From: a virus
Strand: one strand, 5' to 3'
Length of the DNA stretch: 53,080 nt
IMG/VR virus record: IMGVR_UViG_3300033571_028072
Span: 1 to 53,080 of that record
The translations under genes and the position numbers were made by a program. Shown one piece after another: positions 3,499-8,974 of this stretch (its first letter is position 1; every line of letters begins with the position of its first letter). The notes beneath the pieces were generated by a model that saw only the letters and a list, made by a program, of their open reading frames with translations, was not told the DNA's origin and made no database searches.

Positions 3499-3522
3499 AA
3501 AAGGGGCGCAAGCCCCTTTTTT
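3499..3522. terminator. Bidirectional terminator between convergent genes
   Basis: AAAAGGGGC (3499-3507) pairs with GCCCCTTTT (3512-3520) around a GCAA tetraloop, followed by TT on the plus strand and a T-run on the minus strand. It lies 2 bases after the gene 32 stop, and its right edge overlaps the stop codon of the minus-strand 556-residue gene (3521-3523). It therefore ends both converging transcription units. Confidence 0.93.
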
Positions 3523-5191
3523 AATATGATGCTCTTGAATCGCTATATCGTGTAAATGATGATTGCATACGTGGTTCAGCTTTAATGGGTATAGCTGTTT
3601 GTGTGTTTGTGCTATTATTATTCTGAATCACAATAGGTTGTACTTGACCCCCAACTTGCATCTCGCCAGTTAAATTCTTATTCTGTGAACTCTCAGACAT
3701 TAGCTCAGTAGAAAAGTTTCTTCTTGCGGTCGTTGGTGTAATCATCTCCTCAGGTGATGCAGGTGCTCGAACCTGAATATCTCTTTCTTGTTGTGCTGCT
3801 TTTAGCTCTTTAAACTTTGCCTCTGCTTCATCATACTTACCTTGCTTTACAAGATTTTGTATTTGCATGTAATCTTTTTTAGTTAACTGAGTATCATATT
3901 CAGCTTCACCGTCTTTACCCTCCAATGACACTTTATATGTGTCACGACCAAATAGACCCCCCGACACACGTTGACCCAACAATCTACCTGTTTTATATGA
4001 TTGAACATTACCCTCAGGATTCTCAATAACATTGCTATCAGAGCCGCTGGCCATGAACTGACCAATTTTTTGATTTTTCTTTGAAAATAAACTTCCTAAG
4101 AAACTATTACCAAACAAAGATTTTTGTGACACAATACCTTCATCAAGTTTATCTTGTTGTGTAAGAATAGGTCCTGAGGATTCTTGTTTCTTGCGGGATT
4201 CGATGTTTGAACTAATCATTTGTTCGGCTTGTGGTTTTCCTGTCCCACCAGATAAATCTCTGTTGGTTTCTTCTTTGATATAATTGTAGGTGTCCTTTAT
4301 TTTATTAAAGAATCCACCTCGTTTTTGTTCAATGACAGGCGTTTCAGGCTCAGGTGGTTTAATATTTTTGATGGGTTCACGATCTGCTACTGCAGGTGCT
4401 TTCGTGTTTATGTCATAAAAATTTTTACCATCTTTATTTTCACTTAACCACTTCTTTAAATCTTCTCTATTTCTGCCGTATTGAGTAAACAATTCTTCAT
4501 CGCTTAAATCCGACTCAACAGCTTGATTTATCTCTCCCCATCGTACAGACCCAGCAGCACGTCTTGCATTTAGCTTGCCTGCCCGTCCTGCAGTTAAAGG
4601 CCTTCCAGATGCATCTGTCTCGCCACGTTTTTCCATAGCATAAGGATTGAATTCTAATCCAGGAGCGTTTGGATTTGCATCTATCTTTCTTTTTTCAATT
4701 GAGGCGCCAATAAAAGGTAAAGTCGCGATTGTTGCCGCAGCTGCTAATGGACCTGCAATACCCGCTGCAGCCGCTGGGGGCGGCACAGGAGGCACTGTAC
4801 TTGGCACAGGAACTTTTTTGGGAGTGGGAATATCCCCAAAATCAAGACTAAGTTGTTTTGGGTCCTCTTTTTGAGGTGTTTCATCTTCAGATACAGGTTG
4901 CCTATTCGAGGTAGGAGCCTTTTCAGATGATGCACCAGGTGCTCCCTGTAAAGGTTTCTTTTCTACGTAAGGCTTTTGTTCAAATATCTGTTTTTCTTCG
5001 GAAGACTTTCTAAGTATTTTTTCAATATTGATGAGAGCTCTTGACTCTTTTTTTGTTTCTTTTAAAATCTCTTTAACATCTTTATAGAATTGTTTCACCT
5101 CAGAAGGTACAGAGGTGGGAGGATCATTTTGCTTTGTGTAAGCAAGATTATTTCCTGTTAGTAAAGCAGGCAATCTTTTTTGTTGTCTCAT
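3521..5191 (-). CDS. Putative tail tape measure protein (gp29 position)
   Basis: 556 residues. The N-terminal part has a charged helical segment likely to form a coiled coil (about 28-75), then a Pro/Ala-rich hydrophobic stretch (about 131-166: VPPPAAAAGIAGPLAAAATIATLPFIG). The rest is a long polar region with short Ala/Gln/Lys helices and a Gln/Asn/Thr-rich C-terminus. No enzyme motif is seen. The start codon overlaps the stop of the gp51-like frame (ATGA), so translation is coupled. In most tailed phages the tape measure follows the tail-assembly chaperones, and T4 gp29 (590 residues) has nearly this length; a hydrophobic segment is also common in tape measures. No direct similarity to gp29 is evident to me, so the call is by position, length and composition. 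Confidence 0.5.
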   Translation of the reverse strand: MRQQKRLPALLTGNNLAYTKQNDPPTSVPSEVKQFYKDVKEILKETKKESRALINIEKILRKSSEEKQIFEQKPYVEKKPLQGAPGASSEKAPTSNRQPVSEDETPQKEDPKQLSLDFGDIPTPKKVPVPSTVPPVPPPAAAAGIAGPLAAAATIATLPFIGASIEKRKIDANPNAPGLEFNPYAMEKRGETDASGRPLTAGRAGKLNARRAAGSVRWGEINQAVESDLSDEELFTQYGRNREDLKKWLSENKDGKNFYDINTKAPAVADREPIKNIKPPEPETPVIEQKRGGFFNKIKDTYNYIKEETNRDLSGGTGKPQAEQMISSNIESRKKQESSGPILTQQDKLDEGIVSQKSLFGNSFLGSLFSKKNQKIGQFMASGSDSNVIENPEGNVQSYKTGRLLGQRVSGGLFGRDTYKVSLEGKDGEAEYDTQLTKKDYMQIQNLVKQGKYDEAEAKFKELKAAQQERDIQVRAPASPEEMITPTTARRNFSTELMSESSQNKNLTGEMQVGGQVQPIVIQNNNSTNTQTAIPIKAEPRMQSSFTRYSDSRASY

Positions 5192-5391
5192 CCTCTCATC
5201 CTTCTTTCTGCGATTCGGTCTCGCATTCTTTCGTTTTCTTCTCGAATGTGTTCAACTAATAATGTCAAATATATTTCCCTCTCCCACGGCAACATGTTCT
5301 CAATCTCTGTTAAACTATACTTATGATATTGCATAAGTCCAAAATTTGTTTTGTAAAAATCTGCTAGTGAGTCTCTTCCGAGACTTATACG
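5188..5391 (-). CDS. 51: gp51-like hub assembly protein, -1 frame extension of gp26
   Basis: The minus strand is open in the -1 frame relative to gp26, from the slippery site at 5397-5391 to a TGA at 5190-5188, encoding 67 residues after the shift. The sequence (DSLADFYKTNFGL, HKYSLTEIENMLPWEREIYL) matches the small gp51 of marine T4-like phages. The only ATG in this frame is at 5334-5332 and gives a 48-residue product that would lack the conserved-looking N-terminal part. I see no usable ATG, GTG or TTG nearer the gp26 end. Production by ribosomal frameshifting as a gp26-gp51 fusion is therefore the likelier route. In T4, gp51 acts catalytically in hub assembly and is not in the virion. The TGA overlaps the ATG of the following gene. 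Confidence 0.75.
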   Translation of the reverse strand, partial: RISLGRDSLADFYKTNFGLMQYHKYSLTEIENMLPWEREIYLTLLVEHIREENERMRDRIAERRMRG

Positions 5392-5400
5392 AAAAAATTT
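5370..5400 (-). promoter_or_regulatory. Programmed -1 ribosomal frameshift signal in gp26
   Basis: On the minus strand, in the gp26 frame, the codons are GCA AAT TTT TTC GTA TAA. Two overlapping slippery heptamers fit the X XXY YYZ rule: A AAT TTT (5400-5394) and T TTT TTC (5397-5391). After T TTT TTC comes a 5-nt spacer (GTATA, 5390-5386), then a perfect 6-bp stem AGTCTC/GAGACT (5385-5380 and 5375-5370) closed by a GGAA tetraloop of GNRA type. The gp51-like frame is exactly -1 to gp26. Slippery site, spacer and hairpin together match the standard -1 signal. Confidence 0.8.
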
Positions 5401-6086
5401 GCAAGGCCCTCGACTTTGGCCTTGTTTATTGCATTACAATTAGTACACACTAGTTCTACACTCTTTGATAATTTCGGCATGGTCTGGAAGAATTTTTCAA
5501 TTTTTCCAAACTGTTCGATATTCATCGACGCAACAAACTCCTTTAGTTCTTCCTTATCATCTACAGTTATATCAAAATACTTCCCATCACTGGTATAAAT
5601 TCCTTTGATACATCTCTCAATCTCTTCAAAATAATTATCAATCCCTGTTTGTATTAAGTCAGGAAGATCAAGTTTAAATCTTGGGTATTTCATTTCAACA
5701 CCCACCGACTCAGTCAACATAAATTTACTAATATGATCCTTGTCCTTTTGTAACTCTACATTATCAATATTTACACTAAAGTCAATTTTATTTTCACATG
5801 AACGACAAGTTAAAACAAGATCTATCTTTTCTCCGACAGACTTTGCTCGCATCTTAAGAAAGATGTACTCAATATCAAAACTAGCTAATGTTTTTAAATT
5901 TAGCTTGTTAAAGGTACAAATGTCAACGATTTCTTCCATAACCCGCGAAATATCAGAATCATCTGATTCTCTCGCCATCAATAACGCTTTATATTCCTTA
6001 ACGAGAAAGGGACGATATTTAGCTTTTTTTCCTGTGGACGGAATAGTCAATTCATAGGTTGGGACTTCAAGTTTAGGTATAGCCAT
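5385..6086 (-). CDS. 26: gp26 baseplate hub / tail assembly protein
   Basis: 233 residues (T4 gp26: 208), belonging to the T4 baseplate family PF12322. The N-terminus (MAIPKLEVPTYELTIPSTGKK) and the FLVKEYKALLMARES segment are typical. Two CxxC pairs, Cys94/Cys97 (CRSC) and Cys214/Cys217 (CTNC), could form a zinc ribbon. In T4, gp26 is needed for the baseplate hub. The last codons carry a slippery sequence and the next open frame is -1, which resembles the short member of a G/GT-type chaperone pair. It lies 14 bases after the gp54-like gene, with an AGGAT ribosome site, inside a minus-strand tail block. Confidence 0.9.
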   Translation of the reverse strand: MAIPKLEVPTYELTIPSTGKKAKYRPFLVKEYKALLMARESDDSDISRVMEEIVDICTFNKLNLKTLASFDIEYIFLKMRAKSVGEKIDLVLTCRSCENKIDFSVNIDNVELQKDKDHISKFMLTESVGVEMKYPRFKLDLPDLIQTGIDNYFEEIERCIKGIYTSDGKYFDITVDDKEELKEFVASMNIEQFGKIEKFFQTMPKLSKSVELVCTNCNAINKAKVEGLANFFV

Positions 6087-7801: not shown

Positions 7802-8974
7802 ATGGCAATCGACCGCAATAGAATTCTAGATAAGTTCAATACTGATCAGATCTTGGGAAAGGGATTTGAGGGGCGTGAACAACGAAACCCAACTTCAATT
7901 TCACAATCTATTTCAGGTCCTTATAACATTAATCAATTAGTATATCCTGAGGATATTGCAAATAGAGCAGATTTACAACATTATATAGTATTTTACATTA
8001 ATGTGCGAGGAAAAACTAAATTTAAACCTGCAAAAGTTGTTGATGTTGATGTGAGTTCACGAGGGCAAAACAGAATCAGCCAAGCAGGTTTACAAAATAC
8101 TGCACAAGTAGGTGCTGCGATTGCTGCTACAGGCGCTGCTGCTACAGGACAATTAATCGGAAATGCAGTTAAAAGTTCTGTACGAGGAAAAGCAGGTGCG
8201 TTACTTAGATTAGCGACACAAAAAGGAAAAGGTGCAGCGGGAGCATTGGTTGCAGGTGCTGTTGCGGGAGGAACAACTGCTGCTTTACAACAATTATCTG
8301 ACACATTTTCGGTTAAAGAACCTGAAAGAACATCAGATGCAATAATGCTTCCCATTGAAACAATACCTTCTGTAAAGTATTCGATGAAGTATAAAGACTT
8401 TGATTTCGGTATGCTTGGAGGGATTTTAGGCGGATCATCAGCGATTGATTCAACTCTTGCAGGACGAGCAGGAGAAGGTGTGGCAGCTGCAATCGCATCT
8501 ATTGGAAATCTGGCAAAAGGAGTTCCTGGATTAGAAGGTGTGGCGGGAGCTGCAGTTCAAGCAGGAAAATTAGCCGCGAAAGTAACAACTAATCCTTTTA
8601 AAGAAGTTTTATTTGAAGCTGTAAACTATAGAACGTTTTCATTTTCATATAGTTTTCTTCCAAAAAGTGTAGCCGAAGTATTAAATGTTCGTCGAATCAT
8701 TGATCTGTTTAAGTTTCACATGCATCCCGAACTATCAAAAGATGGATTATTTTATGTTTACCCATCAGAATTTGAAATGCAATATTATTTTAAGGGGGAA
8801 GAAAACGAGTTTCTCCATAAAATCAGCACATGTGTTTTGACAGACATGCAAGTTACATATGGAAATGAATATTTTTCATCGTTTAGAGATGGTGAACCCA
8901 CAGAAATCAGAATGTCTTTAACATTCCAAGAAGTCGAATTAATGACTAAAGAAAGAATCGTAAAGGGTTATTAA
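7802..8974 (+). CDS. 48: gp48 baseplate tail tube cap
   Basis: 390 residues (T4 gp48: 364). A variable Gly/Ala-rich middle (about 95-165 and 200-265) interrupts a structured N-terminus (QHYIVFYINVRGK) and a C-terminal domain beginning at about residue 268 (NYRTFSFSYSFLPKSVAEVLNVRRIIDLFKFHMHPE) that ends GEPTEIRMSLTFQEVELMTKERI. This C-terminal pattern is that of T4-type gp48, a tube-fold protein that caps the hub and nucleates the tube with gp54. It is the first gene of the plus-strand baseplate block, behind a late box, and is followed after 1 base by gp53. Confidence 0.8.
   Translation: MAIDRNRILDKFNTDQILGKGFEGREQRNPTSISQSISGPYNINQLVYPEDIANRADLQHYIVFYINVRGKTKFKPAKVVDVDVSSRGQNRISQAGLQNTAQVGAAIAATGAAATGQLIGNAVKSSVRGKAGALLRLATQKGKGAAGALVAGAVAGGTTAALQQLSDTFSVKEPERTSDAIMLPIETIPSVKYSMKYKDFDFGMLGGILGGSSAIDSTLAGRAGEGVAAAIASIGNLAKGVPGLEGVAGAAVQAGKLAAKVTTNPFKEVLFEAVNYRTFSFSYSFLPKSVAEVLNVRRIIDLFKFHMHPELSKDGLFYVYPSEFEMQYYFKGEENEFLHKISTCVLTDMQVTYGNEYFSSFRDGEPTEIRMSLTFQEVELMTKERIVKGY

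Follow-up and report, generated by a model that had tools for sequence, protein, structure and literature searches.

In phage lambda, and in siphophages more widely, two tail assembly chaperones (G and GT in lambda) are made from one start by a -1 shift near the end of the first ORF; the lambda pair is located before the tape measure gene and slips on the heptamer GGGAAAG. A comparable layout of control elements is found in E. coli dnaX, where an internal Shine-Dalgarno-like sequence lies ~10 nt upstream of the heptamer A_AAA_AAG and a hairpin lies downstream, the frameshift giving a shorter product. Among myophages, the chaperone genes of the Vandenendeviridae and Andersonviridae undergo a -1 frameshift at the T-rich site GTTTTT (PMC12846349), and T4-like chaperone genes were treated by Vladimirov, Gautam and Davidson 2022 (Virology 566:9-15), whose study, as far as it is presented in PMC10885494 and PMC12846349, deals with a short and a long form, slippery sites of the poly-T kind and an arrangement as separate genes. 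PMC10885494, citing that study, states that frameshifting is replaced in some T4-like phages by a short gene together with a longer fusion gene. Genes 26 and 51 of T4 itself are essential and encode hub assembly chaperones, their role in hub assembly being described in contradictory terms (PMC3004832). Our literature search found no open paper on a gp26/gp51 frameshift in cyanophages and no usable ribosome profiling of cyanophage infection.

Here we analyzed a window of 53,080 nt, the whole stretch of DNA under study, from a marine T4-type phage (virus record IMGVR_UViG_3300033571_028072), in which a -1 frameshift had been predicted to join gp26 to gp51. The original prediction held that no such frameshift had been described in T4-type phages, which is wrong given the work of Vladimirov et al., as that work is reported in the two articles above. 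The core idea is already published, because PMC10885494 reports separate and fused T4-like genes from that study; what is presented below on the upstream element, on the classes of hairpin and on Aeh1 and nt-1 as a link may add to it.

The locus resembles the described T4-like chaperones in its putative short and long forms, its poly-T site and, in T4, its separate short and fused long genes. With lambda it would share two products from one start and a -1 shift near the end of the first ORF, whereas its slippery heptamer, T_TTT_TTC, is different and the ORF that follows is only a candidate tape measure gene. The T-rich site of the Vandenendeviridae and Andersonviridae is similar but shorter, and the upstream and downstream elements of dnaX recur in the gp26/gp51 family, with T_TTT_TTN in place of A_AAA_AAG and a longer rather than a shorter predicted product.

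Results

The junction between gp26 and gp51

The heptamer, spacer, stem, GGAA loop and -1 open frame that had been predicted at this junction are all present and exact to the base (Table 1). On the minus strand, the gp26-like ORF ends with GCA AAT TTT TTC GTA TAA, and 5 nt (5390-5386) separate the heptamer from the stem, which has 6 bp. The -1 frame re-reads the last C of the heptamer and runs for 67 codons to a TGA at 5190-5188 that shares bases with the start codon (ATG, 5191) of the following ORF, giving a predicted long form (TAC-NC) of 299 aa. The first 19 gp51-like residues do lack a start codon of their own, as had been claimed: codons 1-19 of the extension hold no ATG, GTG or TTG, and codon 20 is the first ATG (5334-5332). 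The anatomy of a chaperone pair, with two overlapping frames from one start and the second extending the first, is present in the window.

Table 1. Features of the gp26/gp51 junction, by window position.
Feature	Position	Strand	Basis
gp26-like ORF, 233 aa, putative short tail assembly chaperone form (TAC-N)	5385..6086	-	PF12322, phrog_150
Shine-Dalgarno-like GAGGG, 9 nt 5' of heptamer; weak form of relatives' GGAGGG	5407..5411	-	position and codon bias in relatives
Slippery heptamer T_TTT_TTC	5391..5397	-	conserved as T_TTT_TTN, synonymous bases fixed
Zero-frame TAA stop, predicted end of short product	5385..5387	-	sequence
Hairpin AGTCTC-GGAA-GAGACT, starting 6 nt after heptamer	5370..5385	-	folding, -8.1 kcal/mol
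-1 frame extension, putative gp51-like C-terminal part of TAC-NC	5188..5391	-	phrog_634, alignment with T4 gp51 C-terminus, pN/pS
First ATG in -1 frame, rejected as independent gp51 start	5332..5334	-	no Shine-Dalgarno signal across relatives
556-aa ORF, candidate tape measure protein	3521..5191	-	position and size; ATG overlaps extension stop (ATGA)

The 40 main ORFs of the window hold 123 in-phase X_XXY_YYZ heptamers, and only the gp26-like ORF opens onto a long -1 continuation, which extends 194 nt beyond its stop (65 nt in the runner-up). In the tail tube cap ORF (window 7802-8974, plus strand) an in-phase AAAGGGT just before the stop is followed by 24 further -1 codons, probably by chance. 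An overlapping slip site, A_AAT_TTT, had also been proposed at the junction; it is indeed present in the window, but we rejected it as a second conserved site and regard it as probably incidental, because most relatives lack it and its presence follows the amino acids encoded there.

Both parts of the predicted product belong to known families. The gp26-like ORF matches PF12322 (gp26/T4_baseplate) over the full model (profile 2-218 of 219) with an E value of 5.7e-59 and 199.9 bits, exceeding the curated cut-off of 24.5, and matches phrog_150 with an E value of 9.7e-66. The -1 extension matches phrog_634, the gp51 family (baseplate hub assembly catalyst), with an E value of 1.7e-26 (profile 58-118 of 121). 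An AlphaFold2 model of the gp26-like protein has a pLDDT of 90, and its best matches in BFVD are phage gp26 proteins. A PDB fold search with this model gave no significant match, the comparison to the HK97 chaperone gp13 (2OB9) yielding a non-significant E value of 3.6-4.0 and a TM score of 0.34-0.37 by target length, and a PDB sequence search with the gp26 profile returned nothing credible.

Conservation of the frameshift site in relatives

Relatives were collected from viral contigs using gp26 (42 loci) and a gp51 profile (80 loci), neither set being selected by slippery site, and were supplemented with named isolates. An HMM-based scan of the first 136 loci found both parts in 133, the other three being two contigs that end early and Vibrio K362, whose diverged extension was missed by the profile. 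In all 133, gp51 lies in the -1 frame relative to gp26, leaving no case of gp51 in another frame, which the original prediction had named as contrary evidence. T_TTT_TTN is found at the junction in 131 of these loci, most often 3 nt before the stop. The remaining two belong to the Ackermannviridae and have ATTTTC, and Vibrio K362 has CTTTTC followed by an open -1 frame; these sites resemble that of the Vandenendeviridae and Andersonviridae more than that of the T_TTT_TTN majority. Manual reading placed the same arrangement in Aeromonas phage phiAS5 and in the jumbo phage Phosso.

Clustering at 75% identity groups the loci with the heptamer into 96 clusters (at 50%, all loci together fall into 48). 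The codon before Phe-Phe encodes Ser, Asp, Asn or Ala, yet it ends in T in all 96 clusters, where 63.4 were expected from each gene's own codon use (P 3e-20), and the first Phe is TTT in all 96, where 65.4 were expected on the same basis (P 5e-19); both P values are only indicative, because the clusters are related to one another. The synonymous bases of the heptamer are fixed far beyond codon bias. Taken with the constant -1 frame, this conservation strongly supports the predicted joining of gp26 to gp51.

Several of these loci bear on annotation. In the Ackermannviridae and Vibrio K362 (L050:4788-4962, L135:3749-3911 and L052:4554-4758), the -1 extension after gp26 is unannotated or differently annotated, and the Ackermannviridae extension matches phrog_9633, a family of unknown function that would be a chaperone C-terminus. 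In the jumbo Sinorhizobium phage Phosso (469 kb; L142:2923-3986), a distant gp26 relative ends with TTT TTC GAA TGA and is followed by an open -1 frame, for which no family match was found.

Candidate stimulatory elements

In 35 of the 96 clusters, a GAGGG, often as GGAGGG, precedes the heptamer at a distance of exactly 9 nt. Where a Glu codon occupies this position, GAG outnumbers GAA by 35 to 20, as compared to 561:1629 elsewhere in the genes, and pairing with the anti-Shine-Dalgarno is overall stronger than in synonymous shuffles (Stouffer z -10.2 vs +4.9 at random control sites). The window's own GAGGG is not distinctive when compared with synonymous shuffles (z -0.04). The original prediction missed this Shine-Dalgarno-like element (GGAGGG/GAGGG).

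The hairpin of the window is not significant when considered alone, as 12 of 200 dinucleotide shuffles fold equally well and synonymous-codon shuffles give z -0.76 (p 0.21). At the sister locus L005, a hairpin of the window type is extended to 8 bp (p 0.007). Across the family, 16 clusters have a proximal stem of at least 8 bp that begins between +4 and +9, where 1.1 would be expected, and we relied only on this excess of strong proximal stems, because stems exceed synonymous shuffles at all distances; most clusters have no strong proximal hairpin. Two hairpin classes carry compensatory changes, such as U-A to G-C and G-U to U-A or U-G, and their covariation scores, calculated from few sequences, are higher than those of all 500 shuffles. 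The expectation that the hairpin would be conserved with compensatory changes is therefore borne out in some lineages, but neither in the window nor in the relatives closest to it. A single universal hairpin was rejected, as the loop centres lie at +13.5, +15.5 or +21 depending on the lineage and many clusters are devoid of any.

Translation of the -1 frame and alternative readings

Public annotations read gp51 as a separate gene, its CDS starting 3' of the gp26 stop in P-SSM2, Mosig, Milchi and Astolliot, and none of the isolate records that we inspected joins the two frames, gp51 being called from a late start or left out. According to this reading gp51 would begin at its own ATG, perhaps through coupling to gp26 or re-initiation beyond its stop, with the overlap being incidental, and an ATG is found at extension codon 19-21 in 85 of the 96 clusters. 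However, 11 clusters lack such an ATG, and where it exists it is without a Shine-Dalgarno signal: its pairing energy has a median of 0.1 kcal/mol, weaker than background, whereas gp26 starts (-6.5 kcal/mol) and those of the next gene (-4.2 kcal/mol) both have a ribosome-binding site. Moreover, in relatives, pN/pS in extension codons 1-19 is 0.40 in the -1 frame compared to 1.1 and 1.5 in the other frames, and by this measure selection acts on the protein encoded in the -1 frame even before any start codon. The frame is also always -1, and T4 has the same sequence fused in frame. We rejected an independent start at the internal ATG, given the missing ribosome-binding site and the selection on codons 1-19, and consider a separate gp51 gene improbable.

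Runs of T or A can also make RNA polymerase slip, and the short and long products might arise when the polymerase slips on the T6 run and not by ribosomal frameshifting, a reading to which the 7 T of some relatives would lend itself. The run is mostly only 6 T, however, and the base after it varies among relatives (C, T, A or G), while the phase of the heptamer, the upstream Shine-Dalgarno-like element and the proximal hairpins all fit ribosomal -1 slippage, making a transcriptional origin less probable still. That the two frames are one gene which an error in sequencing or a recent mutation has broken, as might be suspected from the error-prone nature of homopolymer runs in sequencing and from the single frame of the long form in T4, is refuted by the relatives, since the same split and in-phase heptamer recur in many independent isolates and metagenomes with differing stop codons and stop distances, and its probability is negligible.

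T4 genes 26 and 51 as short and long forms

The T4 genes for gp26 (208 aa) and gp51 (249 aa) lie in divergent orientation. T4 gp51 matches PF12322 over residues 1-201 (E 3.9e-52) and phrog_150 over almost the full length (residues 3-248), and the marine -1 extension can be aligned to its C-terminus. On account of these matches and this alignment, T4 gp51 represents the long form, encoded in a single frame, and T4 gp26 the short form. Separately, T4 gp26 (L046:3803-4429) weakly matches phrog_1140, the family of the hub distal subunit gp28 (E 9e-4), indicating a possible distant relationship.

A tree built on the domain common to both proteins brings together the gp26 and gp51 N-domains of the T4 group (89/79), outside Aeh1, phiAS5, nt-1 and K567, all of which retain the frameshift arrangement. 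The tree backs, without proving, a duplication within the T4 group, owing to its long branches and a warning issued by the tool. The original prediction that the separate T4 genes are a derived form gains support from the full gp26-like domain and extension of gp51, from the tree and from the Straboviridae frameshift: because Straboviridae outside the T4 group (Aeh1, phiAS5 and nt-1) keep it, the split looks derived.

The downstream ORF

The 556-aa ORF (3521-5191, minus strand) yielded no family match, and homology to T4 gp29 was not found. In phage phiM7, the neighbouring ORF at a similar place matches tape measure PHROGs (1.8e-5). By its place and size, it is plausible that the 556-aa ORF encodes the tape measure protein.

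Discussion

Judging by the sequence comparisons, a single gene very probably gives rise to two tail assembly chaperones from one start by -1 ribosomal frameshifting. Most ribosomes would stop at the TAA and release the 233-aa short form (gp26, TAC-N), while a presumed minority, with Phe-tRNA in both the P and the A site, would slip back one base on T_TTT_TTC and continue for another 67 codons beyond the second Phe to produce the 299-residue gp26-gp51 protein. In the gp26/gp51 family the slip is probably aided by the Shine-Dalgarno-like sequence that lies 9 nt before the heptamer, and a hairpin ~4-9 nt downstream probably helps as well in some lineages. By analogy to lambda G/GT, both forms would act during tail building by coating and recruiting the tape measure protein, which is probably the product of the next ORF. 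We infer this chaperone action of the gp26/gp51 pair from T4 genetics (PMC3004832) and from the lambda analogy.

On balance, we favour a view of the chaperone frameshift of the T4 superfamily as a dnaX-like cassette, composed of GGAGGG, a 9-nt spacing, T_TTT_TTN and lineage-specific, exchangeable hairpins, that would be ancestral from a jumbo phage to basal Straboviridae. The divergent genes 26 and 51 of T4 would be duplicates descended from it, of which one has lost the extension and the other has had its frames fused.

The upstream Shine-Dalgarno-like site is a named candidate control element that is open to testing. T4 genes 26 and 51 may be recast as a chaperone pair, short and long, whose counterparts in other T4-type phages would be made by frameshifting, and marine 'gp51' is most likely the tail end of a frameshifted long chaperone and not a free-standing hub catalyst.
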